From Flavobacterium psychrophilum (GTDB taxonomy: Bacteria > Bacteroidota > Bacteroidia > Flavobacteriales > Flavobacteriaceae): a DNA stretch of 16,708 nt. The notes below the pieces were generated by a model that ran no database searches, was not told where the DNA came from, and was given only the letters and a program-made list of their open reading frames with translations. Position 1 is the first letter of the stretch. Every line of letters starts with the position of its first letter. Where the stretch lies: positions 1 through 16,708 of the forward strand of contig CAMBHH010000065.1 in NCBI GenBank assembly GCA_945866505.1, written 5' to 3'. Shown piece by piece: positions 3,430 through 15,965 of this stretch. The translations under genes and the position numbers were made by a program.

Positions 3430-5319
3430 TTATATAATACGCGTAATAAAACTTGATACTTTTTGGACTTTATTACCATATTGTGTTAATCTATTTTTGG
3501 GATAGGTTAAATAAAGAAATCTTTCCGCTCTAGTTACTGCAACATAAAATCCATTTTCTTCTGATTCAAATTCGTTACCTCCTTTTTGAACTGCTCTAAA
3601 ATCAGGAAAAGCACCTTCTGTTAAACCAATAATAAAAACTATTGGATACTCCAAACCTTTTACTGAATGTACTGTTCCCAATGTAATACCGTTTAGGTTA
3701 TTACTAATATTAGTTATACCTAAAGCGATTTGAGTTTTGAAATGTTGTAAAGATTTTAAATCAACTTTTGTATTTCTTGAATATGTATTCCAGAGATCTC
3801 GAAAAGATTTAATATCAAATAGTATTTTATCTAATTCATTAATAGCTTCGTCTTTTGAATTTTCATATTTAAGAATAATATTTTCTTCAAGATTCTTTAT
3901 TGCAGCTGAAAAATTATTAATCTCTTTATCTATTAATTCCCAAGCACTAAGTAAGAATAAGAAATATTCCTTGTTATCCTCTTTTAAAATATTATCATAG
4001 ATTCGTTTAAGATTAGAAATCCCATTATTTTTATCAAGTAATTGAATGTCCTCTATTTCTAATATTTTTTGAATTTTAGAATAATGGATTAAGTCTTGAG
4101 AGTTTGTCAAAACACTTAATCCTAAATCAAATAGCGTAATGAATTCGCTACCGAAGTCTGTAACATCAGAACCTTTTTTATAAAAATAATTTAATTTCTT
4201 ACCCTGTAAATTCCTTTCGTTTAGTTCTTTTTCAACACCTTGAAATAGGTATTTATTTCTAGCTAAAACAGCTATTTTATTAAGAGATATATCTCCTTCA
4301 ATTTCTTCATATTCTTTTTGCAGTAAAAATTCTTCAATTTTATCCACAATCCATTTAGCTTCTTCTTCAACATTAGCAAATTCTTTTATTTCAAAAATAC
4401 CTTCTGGTGTTTTTTCATCAATTGATACCGAATTTGGTTTTATTTTATTTGCGATTTTTAAAACTGCTTTTGAAGAACGATAATTTGTTTTTAATTCTAT
4501 TTTCTCTGCATCGAAATCAGTTAAAAATAATGAATTCATATATTTAATATCGGAACCATTAAAATGAAAAAGTGATTGATTAATATCTCCAACCATTAAT
4601 ACGTTTTTATGCTCTCCATTACATAAAATCTTAATAAACTCATATTGTGCAAAATTCAAATCTTGAGCCTCATCTACAGAAATATATTTATACAATCGTC
4701 TATAAATTTTTGCAATCGAAGGACGTTTAGCAAAAATTTTACAGGCTAAAAAAATAACATCATCAAAATCAATTGCATTTTGTTTTTTTAATAGTTCTTG
4801 ATATTCCCAATATATATAGCCAAGAGCATCGCTACTTTTTTCAATAGGGTCTATTAAATTTTTTTTCTGCTTACTTATATAATCAAGAACTTCATATATG
4901 AAATTTCTTTTTTCATTATCATTCTTGTTTAAGTAATGATTTCTCAAAGTAATATTATTTTCAAATACTTGAATTAACAATGCTTTTCTATCTTCTTCCT
5001 TATCGAAAAAATGAGGCATTTCATTTATACCTATTGAATATCCTTGTTTATTAATAATTTCTAGGCAAAAACTATGAATTGTACCAATAAATGAACGCTC
5101 CTGAATACCTTCAACATCTTCAAGTCTAGCTGCCATTTCTTCGGCTGCTTTGTTTGTAAAAGTTAAGGCTAAAACGTGATATGAACCATCTTTAAGTAGA
5201 TTTTTAATTCTTTCAGTTAACACTCTAGTTTTACCACTACCAGCTCCCGCTAATACTAACAAAGCTCCCTCTTTATGCTGTGTAATTTGGGTTTGAATAT
5301 TTGATAATTTAACTTCCAT
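3430..5319 (-). CDS. gajB: UvrD-like superfamily 1 helicase, Gabija GajB-like
   Basis: A 629-residue SF1A DNA helicase. Motif I (AGAGSGKT) is at residues 24-31, motif Ia (TFTNKAAEEM) follows, motif II (DEAQD) is at 216-220, motif III (GDINQSLFHFNGSD) starts near 244, motif V (HSVKGLE) is at 551-557 and motif VI (VTRAER) at 595-600. All core ATPase motifs are intact. It begins 1 nt after the stop codon of the OLD-family nuclease gene, the arrangement of the Gabija anti-phage system, in which GajB binds the GajA nuclease and is thought to respond to DNA ends or unwound DNA during infection. The characterised Bacillus cereus GajB is about 494 residues, so this version is longer and may keep more of the UvrD accessory domains. 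A stand-alone UvrD/Rep repair helicase is unlikely given the coupling. Confidence 0.85.
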   Translation of the reverse strand: MEVKLSNIQTQITQHKEGALLVLAGAGSGKTRVLTERIKNLLKDGSYHVLALTFTNKAAEEMAARLEDVEGIQERSFIGTIHSFCLEIINKQGYSIGINEMPHFFDKEEDRKALLIQVFENNITLRNHYLNKNDNEKRNFIYEVLDYISKQKKNLIDPIEKSSDALGYIYWEYQELLKKQNAIDFDDVIFLACKIFAKRPSIAKIYRRLYKYISVDEAQDLNFAQYEFIKILCNGEHKNVLMVGDINQSLFHFNGSDIKYMNSLFLTDFDAEKIELKTNYRSSKAVLKIANKIKPNSVSIDEKTPEGIFEIKEFANVEEEAKWIVDKIEEFLLQKEYEEIEGDISLNKIAVLARNKYLFQGVEKELNERNLQGKKLNYFYKKGSDVTDFGSEFITLFDLGLSVLTNSQDLIHYSKIQKILEIEDIQLLDKNNGISNLKRIYDNILKEDNKEYFLFLLSAWELIDKEINNFSAAIKNLEENIILKYENSKDEAINELDKILFDIKSFRDLWNTYSRNTKVDLKSLQHFKTQIALGITNISNNLNGITLGTVHSVKGLEYPIVFIIGLTEGAFPDFRAVQKGGNEFESEENGFYVAVTRAERFLYLTYPKNRLTQYGNKVQKVSSFITRII

Positions 5320-5320
5320 A

Positions 5321-7288
5321 TTATACTTCTTTTATGATTTTCAATTCTTCATTTATTAAATCGAATAAAGTTTTTATTTTTTTTGGAATTTTACTTTTAT
5401 TGCCATCTTCGGTTATCGAAATTATATTTTCAGCTATTTGAGTAGCGTATTTTGTCTTTCCTCCTCTCAAGCAATCTATCAAAGCTCTTTTTATTCCTTC
5501 GTCTCCATTATAATCTCTCACTTCATTCTTTGATAAATTTTCCCCATTTAATTCTGGAATATAATTACTTACTAAATAATTATCGGTCATTTCAATAATA
5601 TCAATAGCTTTATTTAATTCATCATCATATCCTTCATTAACAAGATAGCTTTCAAAGTTATTGCCATCCTCTAAATCAATTAATTTATGTTCAAAATTAG
5701 TATCTCCAAACACATCTTTGATTTGATTTTTAACTTCTTTTACAGTATTTCCGTCGGCATCGCTTAAAATATACCAAGGAATATTTAAAAATTTCGCTAT
5801 TGATAAAAAAGGTGTATAATTCTTTTTTCCACCAACTCCAATAAAATTTAATCCTATCTCAAATGGATATCTATCTCCAAAATACTTTTCAGCAAATATT
5901 GGTAATGCTTGTTCTTCTGTTTCTCCTTCAAACAAAATAATAGCTTTAGCAAAAAGTAATTCGCCTCTTGTATTCATTACTTCTCTTCGTATCTTTCTAA
6001 CTTGTTCTGAATTAATTTTACCTATTCTTTCTTTTTTTAATTCATTAATAATAGGAAAGATTCTTCTTTTTAAATCTTTATTATCATTATCGTTTTTAAT
6101 CTCTTCTATAAGTGAGCATATTTGATTATCTATTAAATCACTTAATTCTAATGCTCCAATTTTCAAACCATTATCATCTTTGTAAAAATGTCTTAAATCA
6201 GTTAATTTACATTGAGCAGCAATAAATGGAGAATGTGTACTTATTATTTTTTGCCCTTTGATTTCATCTAACTGTTTGAATAGATGTCTTTGTGCATTTG
6301 GATGGAGATGTGATTCAGGTTCTTCTAATCCAATGATTGGAAAAAAAGGGTCTTTTACATTCTCATTTTTAGGATTCTCATTCCAAGAGATAAAGGCATT
6401 TAATGTAAGTACAGAAGCCCAGCTTCTTGTACCCATACCGTGATAATCTAATGGTAAACTTTCCTTATCAGTATCTTTGAAATTTATGTTTAAATTTCTG
6501 CCAATATCCCTAATTTTTTTGTTGATTGGAGATATTTCTACACCGGTCCCTTGAGAATTTACTGTTTTATTTAGTTCTTGTAATGTTATTTTTAGATGTT
6601 CTAAAATTGGACTTTCATTGACAATATCAGAGTTTATTTTATTTAATTTCCCTTCAATTTCTATTATTTGAGCATCTTTTATTTCTAATCTTTCTGTAAG
6701 TTTTCCTAAATATGAAGATCTATCTTTTAAATCTATTTGAATATCTCTTTGAGCATCAATAAAAAATAAAGGAATTGCTTCAATTTTTGGAAATTTAATT
6801 TTAGCAATTGTATTTTTCCAAGGACTAATGATTTCTTTTTCATCATTTAATGATTCATAAGGTTCCCAGTTTGTCAATTCTAATGTCTCAAAAGAGTATC
6901 CTTTTAATAAATCATAAAAGCCTCTTGTTCTATAACAAATAAATTCATTGTCATCACTGTCTGTTTTTATATATGAGCCAAAGACTTTTTCTGCCCAATT
7001 GTCACTGAATACAGTTATTCTTTTATTATTTTCATAATCGAAAGGCACAATTCTAATATCAATTAAAATATCTTTACTATCGGCTTTTTCATTCGAGCCA
7101 TCGTCGTGAAAATCTTCTTTTGAAATACTTCTTCTATCAGCACCTAAAGCTAAATGCAATGCTTTTAGGAAAGATGTTTTACCAGCATTGTTAGCTCCTA
7201 CCAAAAGTGTATTTGGTGCTAAACTAACTTCTACTTCTTTTATTCCCCTAAAATTTGCTATTCTTACTGTATCAACAAGTATTGCCAT
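5321..7288 (-). CDS. gajA: OLD-family ATPase/TOPRIM endonuclease, Gabija GajA-like
   Basis: A 655-residue protein with an ABC-type ATPase split by a coiled-coil region and a C-terminal TOPRIM nuclease. Walker A (GANNAGKT) is at residues 31-38, a helical insert follows at about 195-245, Walker B (GLEEPES) is at 320-326 and the H-loop (STHSP) at 350-354. The TOPRIM part shows the metal-binding glutamate in FEGETEE (E454) and the DxD pair in SDADG (D510, D512). OLD proteins encoded beside a UvrD helicase are the class 2 group, which includes GajA, a nicking endonuclease that cuts DNA when nucleotide levels fall during phage infection. The next gene starts 1 nt after the stop. The 92-bp spacer behind res is extremely A/T rich; it could carry a weak promoter (a TTTTTG run followed by TATTTT on the minus strand), but read-through from the RM locus is equally possible. 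Confidence 0.87.
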   Translation of the reverse strand: MAILVDTVRIANFRGIKEVEVSLAPNTLLVGANNAGKTSFLKALHLALGADRRSISKEDFHDDGSNEKADSKDILIDIRIVPFDYENNKRITVFSDNWAEKVFGSYIKTDSDDNEFICYRTRGFYDLLKGYSFETLELTNWEPYESLNDEKEIISPWKNTIAKIKFPKIEAIPLFFIDAQRDIQIDLKDRSSYLGKLTERLEIKDAQIIEIEGKLNKINSDIVNESPILEHLKITLQELNKTVNSQGTGVEISPINKKIRDIGRNLNINFKDTDKESLPLDYHGMGTRSWASVLTLNAFISWNENPKNENVKDPFFPIIGLEEPESHLHPNAQRHLFKQLDEIKGQKIISTHSPFIAAQCKLTDLRHFYKDDNGLKIGALELSDLIDNQICSLIEEIKNDNDNKDLKRRIFPIINELKKERIGKINSEQVRKIRREVMNTRGELLFAKAIILFEGETEEQALPIFAEKYFGDRYPFEIGLNFIGVGGKKNYTPFLSIAKFLNIPWYILSDADGNTVKEVKNQIKDVFGDTNFEHKLIDLEDGNNFESYLVNEGYDDELNKAIDIIEMTDNYLVSNYIPELNGENLSKNEVRDYNGDEGIKRALIDCLRGGKTKYATQIAENIISITEDGNKSKIPKKIKTLFDLINEELKIIKEV

Positions 7289-7380: not shown

Positions 7381-10074
7381 TTACAAAGCTCCAATAATAT
7401 CTAAAAAGTTTTTAACTGTATAGCAACCTTCTACATTTTTACTTTCATAAACCATAAAATATTTATAGTTTTCGCCTGATTTTTCAGCCCATTTTTTACC
7501 TAAAACATTCTTTGCTTTGCTTTCGTCATTGTCCAGAAAATCGCCTTTGGTTTCAACTAAAATAATGTTTTGCTTTTGAGTGTATAATATAAAATCCGGG
7601 TAATGATTGTTGCTAAAACCGTTTAAGTAAAATCCTTTGTCTTTGGTTACTGAATTTCTGTGCCAAAACAAAACATTTTCTTGAGAAGCAATATCCATTA
7701 TCAAACGTTGTTCAAAATTATTCATATCGCCTTCACGCTCGTAAAGTGATTTGTCAATTTTGGCTCCTTCTTTGGTGTGAATTAGCGTTTCTTTGAACTT
7801 GAAAGTTGGTTTTACAATAATTTTATTGGTATCCAACAATCTGCTGAATTCTTCTTTGGCGTGCTGGTTTGATAATTCTAAAATCTTGGCTTTTATTTTG
7901 TAAACGTAGTTGTATTCATTGTTTACTGCATCAATTATCTCTTCTGTGGAGAACTCGCTAAAGATGCGCTCGATGTATTTTTTGATTTCCTGTTCAGCAA
8001 TTGGTGTCATATTACCAATTTTACCCACCATAATATTGGCTATGTCTTTGACTTGCTTTTCTTTTGGTTTGGCTACAATGGTATCAATTAATATTTTTTT
8101 TGCTTGTACGCTAAATTTAGAAATTACAGCATCTTTTCGAGCTTCATCATAATCAACTTTAACAATTTCGGCACTAACACTATTAAAGTCAATTTCAATA
8201 TCTTTTGAAGACAATTTGAATGTGCTTAATAACTGATCTCTATTTAAGAAAACTTCTCCTTGACTTAATTCATCAAAAACCAATTCACGACTTAACACAT
8301 CGGTTTCTAATTTTTTGTAAAACTGTGGTAGCTCAATACTTTCTGCTACTTGATGAAAGTGTTCAACAATTTTGTAACGCTTTGGTTCTTTTCCCATTTC
8401 TCTTAAAAGGTATTCGGTACTATCTCCAGTATCTTCTGTTAATCTTGTCTCAAAAGCAGCTCCTTGTTCGATTGCTTTTTGTGTAATTTGATTGATTGTA
8501 GTATTTGCAACTGGGACAAATTCTTTTGCCATAGGATCGAATTCTATTGCATCAATATTGATATTTGTGATGTCATTATCATCAAATTGTTCAACTGTTT
8601 TGTTTTCTTCTGACGAACCAAATAAATCTCTGTTTAAAGCCTCTTTGTCTGATATTGGAGTAACATTACCTTCAGATATAATTTCTTCGGCATAATAGTC
8701 TTTGTTACTAAAACCTGCATCTTGTAATCCTCTGACAATATTGTCTAATGTTTCGTTGAATTTAGCGGAAGCCGTTAATACAAAAGACAAATTCAATAAT
8801 GGTTCTTTGTGCTTTAAAACATAAGGCTGACGCAATACTCTACCTAAAATTTGTTCTACTTCGACTGCTGATGATTTGTCTGCTAATGATGCTAAAATAT
8901 AGGCAAATGGGCAATCCCAACCTTCCTTTAGAGCATTGATGGTTATAATATATCGAACAGGACATTTTTCGTCCATTAAATCAATTCCTTTTAATTCATC
9001 TAAACCGCTAACTTTGATTTTGATTTGCTCTTCTGGAATTTTTAATTCTATCAGTTTTTCTTTAATCTTGATGTAGGTTGTATTGTCGCTTCCTTTGATA
9101 TTGGATTGTGCCTGGAATAAAATAATGGGTCTTATTTTTTTACCACCTTCTAAAGTTTCTTGAATTGCCAGCTGTTCTAACTGTCTTTGTAAATGTAAAG
9201 CACTATTGATTACTTCTTCTTTACGGCTGTGGTTGTAAACAATAACTGGTAATTTTACCATATGCTCCTTTTTCAATTCAATAGCATTGACATAACTCAC
9301 GATATTGCTATTCTTTTTAGGCGTAGCAGTTAAATCTAAAACGAATGAAGGATTAAGATTTTGCAACATTTCTACACTCAAATCACTTTCGGCATTATGA
9401 CTTTCATCGACAATAACCAAAGGATTTAGGCTTCTAATAATATTTATTAAAGCACTTTCGTCTGTGTCTGGCAAAACTAAATCTTGCTCTACAACGGTAT
9501 CTCTAAAGGCTTCTAACGAACCATTTTGTTGGTATATTTTTCGGTCGTCTTTTTTCTTGGAATTAATCCTTAAACTGCTAAAATTGAATACGAAAATATT
9601 TAATTGTTCTGAAACTGATGTTGGATTAAAATTAGCTCCCTGCAACAAACTTTCTTTTTCGTACACTTCAACACTATGATTGAATAATGTATTTAATTTT
9701 TGGCGGTATGGATGGGCTGGATCTGATAAACTGGAGGCAGTTTGTTGTAATAAATTGCTCCAAGGCACTAACCAAACTACTGCTTTTGGTCGGCTGCTAT
9801 CATAACTGCTGAAAATAGAATGTATAGCATTGCAAGCAATAAATGTTTTTCCTCCAGCTGTAGGGACTTTTATTGCAATGTGTGGTGTATTGAGAATATT
9901 GTCTTTATATGGCACCATACCACTATAAGTACCGTCAAGTTTTAATTCGTAAGGACCAACTTTGTCTTCCCAATATTGCTTGAAAGCTGTTGCAGGTTTA
10001 GGATACTTTTGAAGGTATTCTAAAAACAATTCTAAATCTGTGATTACTTGTTGTTGGTAGGATTTTAACTCCAT
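7381..10074 (-). CDS. res: Type III restriction subunit Res (helicase-nuclease)
   Basis: An 897-residue protein with an N-terminal superfamily 2 helicase and a C-terminal nuclease. Walker A (PTAGGKT) is at 71-77, motif II (DESH) at 223-226, motif III (TATP) at 249-252, the EGWDC motif at 384-388 and motif VI (QILGRVLR) at 408-415. Near the C-terminus PDF (D827) and ETKGD (E841, K843) form the PD-(D/E)XK site used by type III Res for cleavage. All catalytic motifs appear intact and the length fits the family. In type III systems Res works only in complex with Mod, translocating or sliding between two inversely oriented unmethylated sites before cutting. The methyltransferase and a KilA-N gene lie just upstream on the same strand. 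The 114-bp leader between the KilA-N gene and res contains a predicted plus-strand transcript that would be antisense to the res leader. Confidence 0.92.
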   Translation of the reverse strand: MELKSYQQQVITDLELFLEYLQKYPKPATAFKQYWEDKVGPYELKLDGTYSGMVPYKDNILNTPHIAIKVPTAGGKTFIACNAIHSIFSSYDSSRPKAVVWLVPWSNLLQQTASSLSDPAHPYRQKLNTLFNHSVEVYEKESLLQGANFNPTSVSEQLNIFVFNFSSLRINSKKKDDRKIYQQNGSLEAFRDTVVEQDLVLPDTDESALINIIRSLNPLVIVDESHNAESDLSVEMLQNLNPSFVLDLTATPKKNSNIVSYVNAIELKKEHMVKLPVIVYNHSRKEEVINSALHLQRQLEQLAIQETLEGGKKIRPIILFQAQSNIKGSDNTTYIKIKEKLIELKIPEEQIKIKVSGLDELKGIDLMDEKCPVRYIITINALKEGWDCPFAYILASLADKSSAVEVEQILGRVLRQPYVLKHKEPLLNLSFVLTASAKFNETLDNIVRGLQDAGFSNKDYYAEEIISEGNVTPISDKEALNRDLFGSSEENKTVEQFDDNDITNINIDAIEFDPMAKEFVPVANTTINQITQKAIEQGAAFETRLTEDTGDSTEYLLREMGKEPKRYKIVEHFHQVAESIELPQFYKKLETDVLSRELVFDELSQGEVFLNRDQLLSTFKLSSKDIEIDFNSVSAEIVKVDYDEARKDAVISKFSVQAKKILIDTIVAKPKEKQVKDIANIMVGKIGNMTPIAEQEIKKYIERIFSEFSTEEIIDAVNNEYNYVYKIKAKILELSNQHAKEEFSRLLDTNKIIVKPTFKFKETLIHTKEGAKIDKSLYEREGDMNNFEQRLIMDIASQENVLFWHRNSVTKDKGFYLNGFSNNHYPDFILYTQKQNIILVETKGDFLDNDESKAKNVLGKKWAEKSGENYKYFMVYESKNVEGCYTVKNFLDIIGAL

Positions 10075-10188: not shown

Positions 10189-11079
10189 CTAATTCTTTAA
10201 CTTTTTTTGTTCCTCCACAAAAGTACTATCTGATAATCTTTGTAGCGATTTCATAGCATTGCTTTTATCTAAAACGGCTAATTGTTGCAGTGCTGTTCTG
10301 TGTAAATACTGAAATCGTTGGTTTTTAGGCAATTTGTTTTTAATTAATTCTGAATTTAAAACTTCAAGATTTGATAGTACCGTTAATTGATTTATACTTG
10401 CAAAATCTCTCATATTTTTATTTTCAAGTGCTAGTTGCGGATTTGCGAGTTTCCATTGTTTTGCTGTGCATCCAAATAAGGCAACATTCAACACATCGGC
10501 TTCATCAGCATAAGTAATCCATTCTTTGTCCTTGGCTATATTTAGTGTTGGTATGATATGATTTTTTATTGCATCTGTATGTATGCTATAATTGGCTTTT
10601 GTCAAAATTCTTTTTACATCCCATTCTAAATTGAACTGATTGCTTTCGCTTTCTTTGAGGCGTTGGTATTCCTTGATTAAATATAATTTGAAAACTGGGC
10701 TTATTGCCGAACCAAATTCAAAAGCAATGTCTTTATGGGCATAAGTACCACCATATCTACCTGATTTAGAAGACAAACCAATGGCTCCTGTTTGTTCTAC
10801 CCATTGCGAAACACTCAAAACAAATGTTGGCAAACCGGCTTCTTTTTTAAAGTGGTCAAATTCGACCACTTTAAAATTTGGGTTATTTAGCATTTCCCAA
10901 GTTCCTAAAAATTCGATAGTTCCTCTGTTTCTTAACCAATTTTTTATGATGTCGGCAGAACGGTTTTCTCCTTCTCTTGCTTTTGCCATATCTGTAAGAC
11001 AAATAAAGTCTTCTTCTTTAGTGCTGTGAATGTTTATAGCAACATCATTTACTAGTATTTGTTTTATTTTTGCCGTCAT
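10189..11079 (-). CDS. KilA-N domain DNA-binding protein within type III RM locus
   Basis: A 296-residue protein. Residues about 5-130 match the KilA-N domain as I know it from phage and Bacteroidetes proteins, with the signature stretches LTDMAKAR (28-35), IIKNWLRNR (44-52), EFLGTWEMLNNPNFK (56-70), then SGRYGGTYAHKDIAFEF and LYLIKEYQRL. KilA-N is a DNA-binding domain shared by phages and large DNA viruses. The C-terminal 150 residues are helical and resemble the companion region of KilA-N proteins found in RM loci; their role is not known to me. The gene lies 62 bp after mod and 114 bp before res on the same strand, so it is probably co-transcribed and may regulate restriction. A 32-bp palindrome stands upstream and a near copy lies inside the gene at codons 68-79, making autoregulation an attractive hypothesis. 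Confidence 0.85.
   Translation of the reverse strand: MTAKIKQILVNDVAINIHSTKEEDFICLTDMAKAREGENRSADIIKNWLRNRGTIEFLGTWEMLNNPNFKVVEFDHFKKEAGLPTFVLSVSQWVEQTGAIGLSSKSGRYGGTYAHKDIAFEFGSAISPVFKLYLIKEYQRLKESESNQFNLEWDVKRILTKANYSIHTDAIKNHIIPTLNIAKDKEWITYADEADVLNVALFGCTAKQWKLANPQLALENKNMRDFASINQLTVLSNLEVLNSELIKNKLPKNQRFQYLHRTALQQLAVLDKSNAMKSLQRLSDSTFVEEQKKLKN
10845..10876. repeat. Internal copy of 32-bp palindrome, KilA-N gene
   Basis: These 32 bases are a palindrome with a single mismatched pair (10858 with 10863) and differ from the intergenic palindrome at 11116-11147 by one base. The core is AGTGGTCAAATTCGACCACT. The segment encodes FKVVEFDHFKK, part of the conserved KilA-N domain, so the palindrome also serves as coding sequence. 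The centres of the two copies are 271 bp apart. Confidence 0.9.
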
Positions 11080-11115
11080 ACTTTTGGTTAAAATATTTAT
11101 TTATAATTGGTTATG

Positions 11116-11147
11116 TTTTAAAGTGGTCGAATTCGACCACTTTAAAA
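11116..11147. repeat. Perfect 32-bp palindrome at mod stop codon
   Basis: All 32 bases are self-complementary, with core AGTGGTCGAATTCGACCACT flanked by TTTTAA and TTAAAA. One flank supplies the TAA stop of mod (11142-11144), and the other end is 37 bp from the KilA-N start codon. No T run follows on the minus strand, so it is not an ordinary terminator. Its position and the matching copy inside the KilA-N gene suggest an operator for that protein; an mRNA hairpin between mod and KilA-N is the other possibility. Confidence 0.85.
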
Positions 11148-12938
11148 TCTTGTTATATCTCTTGGTATTTTTTTGAAAATGATGTGATGCTTTAGCATAA
11201 AATCTTTTTCGAGTAAACAGTTGTCTGCATAGATTATGTATTGGCTTGCTTTGTGTTTTATTTTAGCCATAAAATCATAATCTACGGTTGTAACTGCATC
11301 TTTGGTGTAATAAAAATAATAATCGGTTTGGTCTTTTGAACCTATGCGATAGTTTTCTTCTACAAGCGAATGCGCTTTTGGATTGTATGCAGTTCTTGTT
11401 TCGGAATACCAAATGTATTTTAAAATATTTTCTAATCCCACTGCTTCATTAAGCACATCTTCTTCGAGAAACAAAGGTTCCCCTAGTTGGTAATAATTGA
11501 AACTACCGCCTGTGCCCTCTACAACTTTTTTATTTTCTTCGCCATAACCGTTAATCACTCGTTTTACTCTTTCAGAGGTGATAGTGTTAGCATAATCTTC
11601 CATTTCAATTAATATAAATTTTCTATTACCTCCGTCTTGTTTGTTCAAATTTAATACTGCGTGTGCAGTGGTTCCCGAACCAGCAAAACTGTCTAATATT
11701 ATGGAGTTTTTATCTCGAAACGAACAAATTAATTTTCCAATTAATTTTGTAGGTTTTGGAAAATCAAATATTTTCTTCCCAAAAATATTTCTATTTTCGT
11801 CATCGCCATCTTCATTAGAACCCCAGCCATTAGCATTTAAATTATTTGTGTCAAATGTTAAATGATTTGAGGTTTCAATTTCTAGTATTTCATTTTTTAA
11901 ATTAAGTATATTTTCCTTATCAGAGGAACCTTCTTCGTAAAGACTTATAAGTTTTGTTTTTAATTTTAGTAAATAATCATTGTCAACTCTAGGTAGCCAA
12001 TCTTTTAATTTTTTATATCTTGGATCAGTAACTTCACGTCTTAAATATAAATCTCTCGTAAAATAAAGTTCATTAGTTTTTGCAAATTCATCAATTTTAT
12101 CTTGACCATATCTCCACTCGCTGCTTATTTCTACATCATTTTTTAAAAATCCATCTTCTAAAACAAGTTCTGTTTTCAGTTCTAAACTCATATTACCCGC
12201 TGAGATAATACTCCCTGCTGGTAAAAAATAATTTTTTTCTTTAAAAGTTGACTTTACACCTTTTGGAATTAATCTTGAACTTACAGTATTGCCTGGGTTT
12301 ATACAAGGGTATGTTTCTTTATGGTTAACTATTTGACCTATCAAACCTTTAAATTCGTTTTGGTTTTTACAATAAACCAAAACATATTCTTTTACTGTTG
12401 TAATCCAATTATTTAAATGAGAACCTTTCTTCTTTTTTTCCCAACTTAAAAGCGCCACTTTGTTTTGTTCACCAAAAATTTCATTGCAAATAGTAATTAG
12501 ATTTTGAATTTCGTGGTCATCAATTGAAATGAAAATTACACCCTCTTTTGCTAAGAGTTTGTGTAATAGTTTTAATCTTGGATAAAGCATACACAACCAT
12601 TTGTCGTGGCGTGTTAAATCTTCACCGTCTTTGCCTACCACTTCGCCCAACCATTTCTTGATTTTGGGGTGGTTTACGTTATCATTATATTTCCAATTTT
12701 CTTCTCCAGTATTGTAAGGTGGGTCAATGTAAATACAGTTTATATTTCCTTCATATTCTGGCAATAAACTTTTTAAGGCTTCGAGGTTGTCGCCGTGAAT
12801 AATTTTGTTGCCGCTGTCATTAGGTTCGGGTTGTTGTAAACCATCAGCAAAGCCATATTGAGGCTCCAGTATTTTGTAGGGTACGTCTTGGTGGTGGTTG
12901 ATTACTTTTTCTTTTCCGATCCAGTTTAATGTTGGCAT
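11142..12938 (-). CDS. mod: Type III DNA methyltransferase subunit Mod (adenine-N6)
   Basis: A 598-residue site-specific DNA methyltransferase. The catalytic motif IV (DPPYNTG) is at residues 72-78 and the SAM-binding motif I (DSFAGSGTT) at 416-424; this order, with the target-recognition region between them (about 170-370), is the beta class to which type III Mod proteins belong. They methylate adenine N6 on one strand of an asymmetric site and are needed with Res for cleavage. The C-terminal 140 residues presumably contact Res. The start codon at 12938 gives a protein beginning MPTLNWIGKEKV, a usual Mod start. A heptamer tandem repeat ends 9 bases upstream of the ATG. The last codons merge into a 32-bp palindrome. 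The recognition sequence cannot be read from the protein. Confidence 0.92.
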   Translation of the reverse strand: MPTLNWIGKEKVINHHQDVPYKILEPQYGFADGLQQPEPNDSGNKIIHGDNLEALKSLLPEYEGNINCIYIDPPYNTGEENWKYNDNVNHPKIKKWLGEVVGKDGEDLTRHDKWLCMLYPRLKLLHKLLAKEGVIFISIDDHEIQNLITICNEIFGEQNKVALLSWEKKKKGSHLNNWITTVKEYVLVYCKNQNEFKGLIGQIVNHKETYPCINPGNTVSSRLIPKGVKSTFKEKNYFLPAGSIISAGNMSLELKTELVLEDGFLKNDVEISSEWRYGQDKIDEFAKTNELYFTRDLYLRREVTDPRYKKLKDWLPRVDNDYLLKLKTKLISLYEEGSSDKENILNLKNEILEIETSNHLTFDTNNLNANGWGSNEDGDDENRNIFGKKIFDFPKPTKLIGKLICSFRDKNSIILDSFAGSGTTAHAVLNLNKQDGGNRKFILIEMEDYANTITSERVKRVINGYGEENKKVVEGTGGSFNYYQLGEPLFLEEDVLNEAVGLENILKYIWYSETRTAYNPKAHSLVEENYRIGSKDQTDYYFYYTKDAVTTVDYDFMAKIKHKASQYIIYADNCLLEKDFMLKHHIIFKKIPRDITRF

Positions 12939-13369: not shown

Positions 13370-15508
13370 TTAAAGAAGATTATCGCTTGAATTACTGGTG
13401 TTTTTTTGGTCTACTTCTTCATAAGTGAATTCTCTAATGGCGTAAACATATCCTGTTTTAGTGCTTATTCTAATGAAGTTGTGTTTTTTCATAGCCTTTC
13501 CGATTTTGTTTATTGTACCGTCATTGATGTTGATTTTTGCCTTTTCTGCTAGTTTGGCTGCTATTTGAGAAGCGTTTAAAAATAGTGTTGCGTTTTCTCT
13601 TTCGATTGGCTCAAACCACGTTAATAATAATTCTTCTTCTGGGCTTCGTAGCTGGTATTGTTCGTTATTTTCGGTGATGGATTTTATTTCTTCCTGGTCA
13701 AACCAATATCTAAAGCCACTTTTGAAAAGATACAATGCTTGTGAAAATGCCATATTAATATCTACATTGTGCTGGTATTTGATGCCTTCCAACTCAAAAC
13801 AAAGAAACCTTCTGCTTCCTGTACTGTCGTTTAAGAACTGTGCTGTATTTACACTTCCGGCAAACGATGCCCGTCTGGGCATTGTTTCGTTGTTGTGTCC
13901 GTAAGCTTTTCTCATTCTGATTTGGGTTTTTGTAATGATTTCTTTGAGGGATCCTATTTCGGAACGGTTCAAGTTTTCAAGTTCGTCTAAATTAATTAAC
14001 ATACATTCTGAAAGCTGCACCAGAGTATCTTTGTTGTTAGGGTTTATGGTTCCAGAAAATAGATATTCTTTCAATGGTTTCGGAACGAGTTTTTCCACCC
14101 AGGTTGTTTTGCCTAATCCTTGTTTGCCACTGAAGACAATAACTGTGTGATTGATTACTTTGTCATCCAATACGCAACCTACCATTGCTACTAACCATTT
14201 TTTAAAACATTGCTGCCAAAGTTCTTGTTTTGTGGTTGTGATTGTGTTGGCTAATTCGGTAATGTAATCGGTCTTTTCATCATAAGAAGGTAAATTAAAA
14301 AAGTAATCTTCAAATGGATTGAACAGTTCACAAAAATCAGAATACAATAAGTTTCTTAACGATGATAGGTTTGTTTTAATTCTACCTTTTAAACATTCTC
14401 GAAGCATTGAATTTTCTATAAAATCATTCATTACATTCCACTTCTTTTTGCCGAAATATTGGAACTCTAATTTACCAGAAACCATATTGTGCCGAAATAC
14501 ATATTTGTTTGATAAAAACAACTCTAATCGGTCTATTTGGGTTGGTTTTGGTTTGTCTTCGTCGTCAGCCTCACCCCAGCCCTCTCCAAAGGAGAGGGAG
14601 TTAGAAACCGTATTCTTTTTTGAAGAAGAGTTTGCTTCGTCGTTCCTCCTCGCAATGACAGGTTTTTCGTTTTTGCCAAACTCGTGGATGTTTCCATAGG
14701 CACTGTTGACAGCTTGAGTTACTTCTTTTTCATCATAGCCAAAATCGGTTAAAATATATCCTAGTGCTTCTTGCAATGCTACTCCTTTTCGGTTTAGGTT
14801 ACACGCTAGTTGGTGCACGAATACGTTACGACTTCCATTCACAAACTGCACTTTTTTTTCTGTGAAATTTACGCAGTGGTTGTAAACAACCTCACTACTT
14901 TCGGTTGTTTGAGGTCCTTCGACAAGCTCAGGATGACAAACTTTTTCAATAGGCATCTCCACTGTGCTCAATGAGACAAAGGTTGTAGCGGTTTCGTTTA
15001 GATATAGATTTTCATCCCAGGAATAAAAGCATAACCTCGTTATATCTTTGCCTGATTTGTCTATTTCCAGTTTTAGAATGCTCTCATAATGTGCTTGTAC
15101 CAATAGGAACGCTTCTTTGTGATTTGCTTTGTCTGAATTGATTTTTACTAGAATTTTTAATCCGTTGCCTGATGGGCTTATGAAACTGGCAAATGTGAAT
15201 TCAGATTGATTGGCCAAATGCTTTGCATTTTGCAAATCGACTGCACTTAATTTGTCGATGTCCAAAATAATACAATTTGAATAATTCGCTAGGAATTCCA
15301 ATTTTCGACCTCCAACAAACTTTCCCGAAGGTGTGAATGCTGGAAGGGATTTTTTGGCTTTGTTGTAAGCTTCTGTTTTGTTTTCGGCAAGTGATTTACG
15401 CAAGTAAACAATGCCCGGTTTGTATTTTCCAGAGCGTATTTCTTCCAGTATTGAATGGATGGATTTGTGTTCAACGACTTCGTTAAAGTTTTTGAAGATT
15501 GTGACCAT
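13370..15508 (-). CDS. BT4734/VirE-family primase-helicase of a mobile element
   Basis: A 712-residue protein of the type found in Bacteroidetes integrative elements. Residues about 10-180 resemble the BT4734-like N-terminal domain, with an acidic ILDID strand (81-85) and SPSGNGLKI (111-119) as in primase-like folds. Residues about 225-275 look like a PriCT-type helical module. The VirE-type P-loop ATPase follows, with Walker A GKQGLGKT at 461-468, an acidic LINLDE strand near 504-509 and TGSRRF at 563-568 as a likely arginine finger; a winged-helix-like region covers the last 80 residues. It probably helps replicate or mobilise the element. Two linkers contain translated dispersed repeats: CHPELVEG (191-198), then VIARRNDEANSSS (284-296) and SLSFGEGWGE (304-313). 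The frame stays open through all three. The upstream HTH gene is its usual neighbour. Confidence 0.85.
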   Translation of the reverse strand: MVTIFKNFNEVVEHKSIHSILEEIRSGKYKPGIVYLRKSLAENKTEAYNKAKKSLPAFTPSGKFVGGRKLEFLANYSNCIILDIDKLSAVDLQNAKHLANQSEFTFASFISPSGNGLKILVKINSDKANHKEAFLLVQAHYESILKLEIDKSGKDITRLCFYSWDENLYLNETATTFVSLSTVEMPIEKVCHPELVEGPQTTESSEVVYNHCVNFTEKKVQFVNGSRNVFVHQLACNLNRKGVALQEALGYILTDFGYDEKEVTQAVNSAYGNIHEFGKNEKPVIARRNDEANSSSKKNTVSNSLSFGEGWGEADDEDKPKPTQIDRLELFLSNKYVFRHNMVSGKLEFQYFGKKKWNVMNDFIENSMLRECLKGRIKTNLSSLRNLLYSDFCELFNPFEDYFFNLPSYDEKTDYITELANTITTTKQELWQQCFKKWLVAMVGCVLDDKVINHTVIVFSGKQGLGKTTWVEKLVPKPLKEYLFSGTINPNNKDTLVQLSECMLINLDELENLNRSEIGSLKEIITKTQIRMRKAYGHNNETMPRRASFAGSVNTAQFLNDSTGSRRFLCFELEGIKYQHNVDINMAFSQALYLFKSGFRYWFDQEEIKSITENNEQYQLRSPEEELLLTWFEPIERENATLFLNASQIAAKLAEKAKININDGTINKIGKAMKKHNFIRISTKTGYVYAIREFTYEEVDQKNTSNSSDNLL
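14569..14602. repeat. Dispersed CCCTCTCC-AAA-GGAGAGGG hairpin repeat in coding frame
   Basis: The arms 14580-14587 and 14591-14598 make a perfect 8-bp G/C-rich stem with an AAA loop. The surrounding CCTCACCCCAGC is the usual flank of a repeat I know from many Bacteroidetes genomes. It is translated as SLSFGEGWGEAD in the primase-helicase linker, and it is far richer in GC than its surroundings. Confidence 0.75.
14631..14660. repeat. Dispersed GTCATTGCGAGG-type repeat in coding frame
   Basis: On the minus strand the segment reads GTCATTGCGAGGAGGAACGA and continues ACGAAGCAAA, which closely follows a widespread bacterial intergenic repeat. Here it is translated as VIARRNDEAN in the primase-helicase linker. 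It lies only 28 bases from the hairpin repeat of a different family. Confidence 0.7.
14913..14938. repeat. CHPELVEG dispersed repeat in coding frame
   Basis: On the minus strand the segment encodes CHPELVEGP, the well-known translation of a dispersed repeat (core CCTTCGACAAGCTCAGG on the plus strand). It sits between the primase-like and PriCT-like parts of the protein. A second, diverged copy is found 620 bp away in the leader of the same gene. Confidence 0.8.
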
Positions 15509-15534
15509 AGTATAAGGATGATAGTTGAAAATTA

Positions 15535-15558
15535 CCCTTCGACAAGCTTAGGGTTACA
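15535..15558. repeat. Diverged CHPELVEG-type repeat in primase-helicase leader
   Basis: CCTTCGACAAGCTTAGGGTT followed by ACA matches the copy at 14916-14938 at 20 of 23 positions. It lies 27 bp upstream of the primase-helicase start codon, in the same orientation as the internal copy. Confidence 0.7.
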
Positions 15559-15577
15559 GTTTGTTGGTTCTCGTTTG

Positions 15578-15605
15578 TGTGAGTTTTGCAATCGCAAAAC
15601 TCACA
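15578..15605. repeat. Perfect 12-bp hairpin between HTH and primase-helicase genes
   Basis: TGTGAGTTTTGC (15578-15589) and GCAAAACTCACA (15594-15605) are exact reverse complements separated by AATC. No T run follows on the minus strand, so it is not a standard terminator. It begins 20 bp from the diverged CHPELVEG copy and may be another dispersed palindrome or an mRNA-processing or attenuation hairpin in the operon. Confidence 0.75.
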
Positions 15606-15627
15606 AGTTCCGTTGCAGCTGCTCATA

Positions 15628-15909
15628 CTATCTTCCTTTGAAAGATTTGTTGTAATGCTCCGTTAGGAGCTTTTCAACATCAGAAAGTTTGTAGTAGATT
15701 TTGTTACCAACTTGACTAAATGAAATTTTACCTTCGTCTCTCCAGGTTTGCGCTGTACGTTTTGAAATTTTCATCAGAAGCAGGAATTCTTGATTGTCCA
15801 GAAAGGTTTCTTTCTTTGGGTCAGCCTTGATTGAGATTTGGCTTTGAATTGTGTCTAATTTGCTCATTAGATCTGTGAACTGGTCTTTTGTGAAGATAAT
15901 TGCATCCAT
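15628..15909 (-). CDS. HTH DNA-binding protein (excisionase/MerR-like) of a mobile element
   Basis: A 93-residue protein beginning MDAIIFTKDQF. The C-terminal half (about 36-88, FLDNQEFLLLMKISKRTAQTWRDEGKISFSQVGNKIYYKLSDVEKLL) carries a winged helix-turn-helix of the kind used by excisionases and MerR-like regulators, with the recognition turn around KRTAQTWRDEGKI. The N-terminal half is helical and may dimerise. Bacteroidetes integrative elements commonly place such a protein just before a BT4734/VirE-type gene, as here. An in-frame TTG at 15939 would add ten residues, but it overlaps the -7 promoter box, so the ATG at 15909 is the better start. It may act as an excision factor or regulate the element; the choice is open. 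Confidence 0.85.
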   Translation of the reverse strand: MDAIIFTKDQFTDLMSKLDTIQSQISIKADPKKETFLDNQEFLLLMKISKRTAQTWRDEGKISFSQVGNKIYYKLSDVEKLLTEHYNKSFKGR

Positions 15910-15936
15910 TTTTAAAAGTTTTAAATTGTTATGGTG

Positions 15937-15965
15937 CAAATGTGAGAAGTTGAAAAAAGTCCAAA
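15937..15965 (-). promoter_or_regulatory. Promoter for HTH and primase-helicase genes
   Basis: On the minus strand TTTG (15965-15962) is followed after 17 bases by CACATTTG (15944-15937), one base off the TAnnTTTG consensus, and then CACC. Initiation near 15930 leaves a leader of about 20 nt before the ATG at 15909. The -33 box lies directly against the terminator of the preceding gene. Confidence 0.55.

Follow-up and report, generated by a model that had tools for sequence, protein, structure and literature searches.

A palindrome within the DNA-binding-domain codons of PDC-S22-family KilA-N genes, a putative cognate recognition site and self mark

Genetic context of the palindromes

Why does a long palindrome that covers the stop codon of a methyltransferase gene recur, almost unchanged, inside the coding sequence of the neighboring KilA-N gene? 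The question is raised by the window, i.e., the whole analyzed stretch of Flavobacterium psychrophilum DNA (16,708 nucleotides). The features concerned are as follows:

7381-10074, minus strand: type III restriction enzyme (res), downstream of KilA-N
10189-11079, minus strand: KilA-N protein of 296 aa (Pfam PF04383 at residues 11-143; PADLOC candidate PDC-S22)
10845-10876, no strand: internal palindrome, a 31/32 copy of 11116-11147, with an own palindromy of 30/32
11116-11147, no strand: perfect palindrome (32/32) over the mod stop, with 36 bp between it and the KilA-N start
11142-12938, minus strand: type III DNA methyltransferase (mod), whose stop lies within the palindrome

On the minus strand the gene order is mod, KilA-N, res (a type III restriction-modification system), then GajA and GajB (Gabija), which occupy positions 3430-7288, directly downstream of the type III system. 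Together, the type III system, Gabija and PDC-S22 form a compact defense island. Upstream of mod (13370-15939) there are genes encoding a VapE-like/BT4734-like protein and an excisionase-like HTH_17 protein, and the island may reside on an integrative element.

PDC-S22 is a PADLOC single-gene phage-defense candidate. The window protein matches its model with an E-value of 4.7e-124 (residues 3-281 of 296 against model positions 3-275 of 281), as do its 61 homologs in alignment A3 (62 of 62 aligned proteins). PADLOC-DB includes a BstA model, and it was by PADLOC models alone that the window protein was set against BstA; PDC-S22 was the sole model matched at E 0.01. The family is very large, with at least 7,999 relatives scored at E 0.001. 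In the best AF2 model (mean pLDDT 86.8), residues 1-140 form an Mbp1-like domain. A sequence search of solved structures with the KilA-N protein gave nothing below E 0.5, and BstA was not among the structures named by the structure aligner, which is uninformative either way.

Both palindromes of the original prediction were recovered: the perfect one over the mod stop, ending 36 bp before the KilA-N ATG (11079), and its copy with one changed base, 271 bp away within the KilA-N coding sequence. The latter contains codons 69-78 (10846-10875), which encode the peptide FKVVEFDHFK of the KilA-N domain. A chance origin was held to be very unlikely, and this is borne out: for 16,708 bases with the composition of the window, the expected number of perfect 32-bp palindromes is about 3.5e-5. 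The two are the top-scoring 32-bp palindromes of the window, the third best reaching 26/32.

The usual core of the palindrome appears to be CGAATTCG, while the six outer bp of each arm would define its type. The type GTGGTC is found in the window and in the Flavobacterium MAG BC.034 (G001, locus L025), which carries an equally spaced pair, with a perfect internal and an imperfect upstream copy. In a further relative (G071) the type has switched in both copies (upstream copy GGTGTC; internal arms AGTGTC/GGTGTC). The mod homolog of G079, a genome without a KilA-N match, has an identical end (...GATATAACnAGATTTTAA), and there the palindrome is absent although the terminal TTTTAA is present. Since this mod ends alike without the palindrome, TTTTAA, the left edge of the palindrome, is the native end of mod, and the palindrome itself seems, from this comparison of sequences, to be part of the KilA-N cassette rather than of mod. 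In the same genome (L606; G079:C279:30800-36500) another small gene, which by eye we take to be GxxExxY-like, replaces KilA-N between mod and res. The mod-res gap of related type III systems thus looks like a cargo slot.

Constraint on the internal palindrome

KilA-N homologs were collected from genomes and viral contigs. Among those fetched by homology (153 loci; 156 segments, including repeats of one place), palindromy at the codons aligned to residues 69-78 is 22-30 of 30, the sole exception being a second, poor HSP of L137 (4/30), which was left out of the codon-resampling tests. Across 98 loci (without L002, L004, L005 and L108, repeat fetches of G001), the mean palindromy of codons 69-78 is 0.908, compared with 0.267 (sd 0.047, highest 0.48) at other offsets between -200 and +700. 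Matches with 28-37% identity (L474, L477, L478 and L481) have weaker palindromes (18-20/24).

The symmetry stays while the sequence varies. The segment TTTAAAGTGGTCGAATTCGACCACTTTAAA encodes FKVVEFDHFK, and its variants include TTTAATTCCATCGAATTCGATGGAATTAAA (FNSIEFDGIK), TTTAATTATACCGAATTCGGTATAATTAAA (FNYTEFGIIK), TTTAAACCTATCGAATTCGATAGGTTTAAA (FKPIEFDRFK) and TTTAACATGGTGGAATTCCACCATGTTAAA (FNMVEFHHVK); a Streptococcus canis satellite has a different core, TTTAAACGATTGGAATTCCAATCGTTTAGA. The homology-fetched set contains 47 arm words.

For 63 distinct homology-fetched segments the mean palindromy is 26.7/30, against 17.4 expected with the amino acids fixed and the genes' own codon usage, so that protein conservation alone is ruled out as an explanation. 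The maximum permitted by the peptides averages 28.0/30, and 28 of the 63 segments stand at their own maximum. The amino acids themselves also participate in the symmetry. When arms were shuffled among 52 distinct peptides, attainable palindromy fell from 27.8 to 24.8 (sd 0.27; highest value in 1000 shuffles 25.8), and partner residues are codon-complementary (V-H, S-G, P-G, Y-T, P-R, L-Q; z 11.2, uncorrected for common descent, as the palindromy and shuffle statistics ignore the tree). Pair 9-22 compensates, with GC in 12, TA in 12, CG in 13 and AC in 2 of 39 segments. A first round of tests took in loci L105-L133 (71 segments, 26.8 vs. 17.4; codon complementarity z 12.4). As these had been fetched by the palindrome pattern, the repeat excludes them and we rely on the homology-only figures. 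Protein positions that track the palindrome type (34, 41-46, 60 and 125) were not used, because descent confounds them.

The internal copy is therefore kept at synonymous positions in distant homologs, for which conservation of the peptide is insufficient. The internal site is constrained at the nucleotide level, not just as a peptide, and its arms covary.

Further copies in bacterial genomes

In 129 homology-fetched KilA-N loci we found 19 extra palindromes, of which 11 lie within 300 bp upstream of the gene (38.4 kb in total) and eight in the other 1,059 kb. With pattern-fetched loci the count rises to 25 sites in 151 loci (16 in 44.6 kb upstream vs. 9 in 1,116 kb), leaving out L179-L189 and identical contexts; the shuffled sequence used as a control for this count contained none. 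The type of the upstream site equals that of the gene itself in four cases (the window, G001, G071 and L092), i.e., 4/11 of the homology-fetched sites or 4/16 from all loci, and differs from it in the remaining 7/11 or 12/16. Most loci have the internal copy alone.

A generic 30-mer pattern matched in 29 of 395 Bacteroidota genomes. Among the 29 loci opened from it, 26 have a KilA-N tblastn match, two (L128 and L132) read as KilA-N fragments, and L109 was assigned to neither group. With a 24-mer pattern, 33 genomes yielded 36 sites, against one genome matched by the reversed control; of the 30 sites opened, 22 lie in KilA-N matches and eight alone, two of the latter near KilA-N fragments. Several KilA-N fragments (L132, L110, L172, L178 and L230) start or stop at the palindrome or close to it, which would fit a hotspot of breakpoints. 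Locus L484 has several palindromes in one short frame, MKAKVVEFDPFSFNPIEFDGFNRVEFDAVAKTVGKHSNPDFNYGEYATIRNQAG.

Two loose copies in bacterial genomes deserve mention. A GTGGTC palindrome lies between thymidylate synthase and HU-like genes (L609, site 4024; G008:C12:283000-291000) in a genome without a KilA-N match, and its 30-mer is identical to the upstream copy of G001. A GGTGTC palindrome is located in a phage-type ORF (PHROG) adjoining an endolysin gene (L610, site 3914; G378:C2:88500-96500). Escherichia coli was dropped as a panel of empty sites, since nothing close to two viral KilA-N genes was found in it.

Loose palindromes in phages and satellites

Among the matches listed for viral contigs, 109 of 116 sites stand alone; such sites were called loose on stretches of contigs, elsewhere on which a KilA-N gene could lie. 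With exact 24-mers, 51 of 59 viral sites are loose, a figure not used as evidence because it includes ordinary terminators of T4-like phages. In marine T4-like phages (L497-L576) a terminator is located at a constant position, about 75 bp ahead of terL, with variable stem and loop, and some of its versions are identical in sequence to KilA-N palindromes. By eye, 77 T4-like relatives (of 80 loci) have a hairpin with a T-run and varied stems and loops before terL, and we therefore regard the terL-upstream sites of the marine T4-like phages as terminators. Treating all loose phage sites as one class was accordingly rejected.

The opposite simplification, that the loose palindromes are all generic terminators, was rejected as well, on their arm words. 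For loose sites without a T-run, 83 of 131 arm words fall within the 19 words of the same form from KilA-N genes, compared with 11 of 77 words of generic hairpins from the same loci; for sites with a T-run, 12 of 24 arm words are shared with KilA-N genes. A- or T-runs accompany 20 of the 97 non-redundant loose sites.

The clearest single case is that of Streptococcus phage Javan117, in which the element directly follows a stop codon in the capsid operon and matches, at 35/35 positions, the coding segment of KilA-N in satellites Javan559, 581, 588, 596 and 625. The same junction was read in eight Streptococcus phages, out of record lists of 16 and 23. Javan527 has CTGG/GGGG arms, Javan118 has CCGTGT/GGGG arms and Javan485 a shortened form; no such palindrome was found at the junction in Javan128, 315.3, Javan146 (a weak 16/24 stretch) and Javan454. 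A terminator-like hairpin (GTCGTAGCAATACGGC, then T) beside the junction is kept in seven of the eight phages and altered in Javan527.

Neighboring palindromes are mostly 24-50 bp apart. None of 16 distinct pairs (two of them from close relatives) contains one type twice; no rate was derived from these, because the loci had been fetched for holding palindromes. In the Helicobacter phage record BK070131 a loose palindrome lies downstream of a KilA-N gene of a different kind, without an internal site.

Alternative explanations

The original prediction proposed paired operators for KilA-N, timing restriction after entry into a new host. As a general role, C-protein-like timing of restriction is unlikely, the close neighbors being too diverse, and KilA-N is a stand-alone defense candidate (PDC-S22). 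Among the first 25 families listed, restriction or modification domains are encoded by 2/41 downstream (ResIII) and 5/56 upstream neighbors (HsdM-type 3, N6_N4_Mtase 2); the scan covered 41/63 same-strand downstream neighbors at most 100 bp away and 56/60 same-strand upstream neighbors within 200 bp, without near-identical viral copies. The operator part fared better. A KilA-N dimer on the internal (and upstream) site could act as a roadblock or form a loop and thereby repress transcription of its own gene, in line with the upstream sites at -27 to -194 of the start and with L092, where the upstream copy is located between a promoter-like motif, presumably of the Bacteroidota type, and the start codon. 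In the nearest relatives (window, G001 and G071) both copies are kept and change type jointly, and for this lineage the paired-operator reading survives. Most loci, however, have no upstream site, and where one exists its type is mostly foreign to the gene, which disfavors an autoregulatory pair; nor do operators explain loose palindromes, or mixed types side by side, on phage stretches without a KilA-N match. We regard autoregulatory operators as unlikely to be the explanation for the family; autoregulation is possible above all in the window, because both copies there are of one type.

A mobile or recombinogenic palindrome, spreading by insertion or hairpin-templated repair and tolerated by the KilA-N gene, would account for similarity between copies that stops at or a few bases from the palindrome edges, for the KilA-N fragments (L132, L110, L172 and L178) that begin or end near it, and for several phage elements placed directly after stop codons. 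Nevertheless, the patterns used gave at most two matches per genome, the element occupies constant codons of one family in records named from several phyla, and a neutral element would be expected to decay in place. Such spreading, with covariation arising through template-switch correction of imperfect palindromes, is improbable in our estimation. The remaining alternative is an RNA element, either a hairpin of the KilA-N transcript or a terminator acting in both directions. Strong RNA hairpins are predicted for both window copies (-18.5 and -17 kcal/mol; z -6.6 and -3.8), and a terminator scan marked both on the plus strand, against the genes, but neither on the coding strand. The look-alikes before terL in T4-like phages are plainly terminators, yet the arm words of loose sites without a T-run resemble those of KilA-N genes rather than generic hairpins, and most of the eight Streptococcus phages have a separate terminator-like hairpin next to the element. 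Over all 15 pairs of the homology-fetched set, GT/TG mismatches outnumber AC/CA (53 vs. 21), which counts against a DNA reading; most of this excess comes from pairs 2-29 (AAA/AGA) and 13-18 (TTC/TTT), at which the encoded amino acid constrains the partner base. Pairs 4-12, which vary freely, show the opposite (GT/TG 7, AC/CA 16), and the RNA hairpin reading is weakened but still standing. The wobble counts leave DNA versus RNA unsettled; we lean toward DNA, given the DNA-binding fold of the protein and the loose copies outside genes, and consider an RNA element quite improbable.

Proposed role of the palindrome

The explanation we favor, while granting it slightly less than an even chance, is that the palindrome is the cognate recognition site of the PDC-S22-family KilA-N protein, placed within its own gene as a putative self mark. 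A KilA-N dimer would bind the palindrome as DNA, and we infer that each protein has its own cognate palindrome type. With less assurance, and by analogy with aba and BstA, we propose that the site, since it moves together with the gene, may mark the carrying element or replicon as self and switch the defense protein off there. On this view, the loose palindromes of phages and satellites, some of which stand beside palindromes of other types, would serve as immunity tags. The additional copy at the mod stop would give the window a higher tag dose, and it could double as an operator. Foreign-type upstream sites, mixed types side by side, and presence, absence or change of type at the phage junction fit tags better than operators. 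The broader generalization, that KilA-N defense genes write their own recognition site into the codons of the DNA-binding domain and that phages and satellites collect these palindromes as DNA-only immunity tags, is one we put forward with considerable reserve.

It is a rare double constraint for one stretch to encode protein and at the same time form a near-perfect palindrome, with compensating codon and amino acid changes across distant bacteria. It yields a specific prediction, namely that the site would be read as nucleic acid and each type separately. On the broader generalization, the KilA-N protein and its target would evolve as one self-complementary sequence, in an arms race with 30-bp passwords. 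The tag reading, if true, would explain how a very large family discriminates self from foreign DNA, and phage genomes would give a readable list of the defenses escaped.

Comparison with known systems

The C proteins of type II restriction-modification systems are small DNA-binding regulators with paired symmetric sites beside the restriction-modification genes. The window KilA-N gene likewise adjoins such genes and has paired symmetric sites. In contrast to C proteins, KilA-N has no general link to restriction-modification (2/41 and 5/56 neighbors), its site lies within the coding sequence, and its upstream types are mostly foreign. The palindromic elements of Rickettsia are in-frame palindromic DNA in coding genes, and the KilA-N palindrome is also read in frame within a protein; unlike them, it is found at one homologous position in one family, its core is conserved and its arms covary.

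PDC-S22 is listed in a Streptococcus suis survey (PMC12813430), and other PDC genes figure in a defense-locus study (PMC11514479). In the literature searched, we found no mechanism, DNA element or protection experiment described for PDC-S22 and, with most subscription papers outside the search, no published description of the KilA-N palindrome.

The closest precedent is BstA, a prophage abortive-infection protein with a KilA-N-like domain, and its cognate DNA-acting element aba, which overlaps bstA and spares the prophage carrying it (Owen et al., 2021; PMC8585504). The aba element comprises 63 bp at the start of the gene and contains CCCGCC direct repeats; this repeat was not found on either strand of the window. 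In multicopy, aba acts in trans to suppress the protein. BstA and the KilA-N protein have in common a KilA-N-type N-terminal domain, a length of about 300 aa and a defense role (candidate for PDC-S22), and both loci have a short element in or at the own gene, with variant-specific types. They differ in that the KilA-N palindrome comprises 24-30 bp inside codons 69-78, shows compensating changes and has loose copies of multiple types in phages, whereas aba is the 63-bp element at the gene start. If the tag reading of the KilA-N palindrome is true, the lone precedent of BstA-aba would become a general principle.
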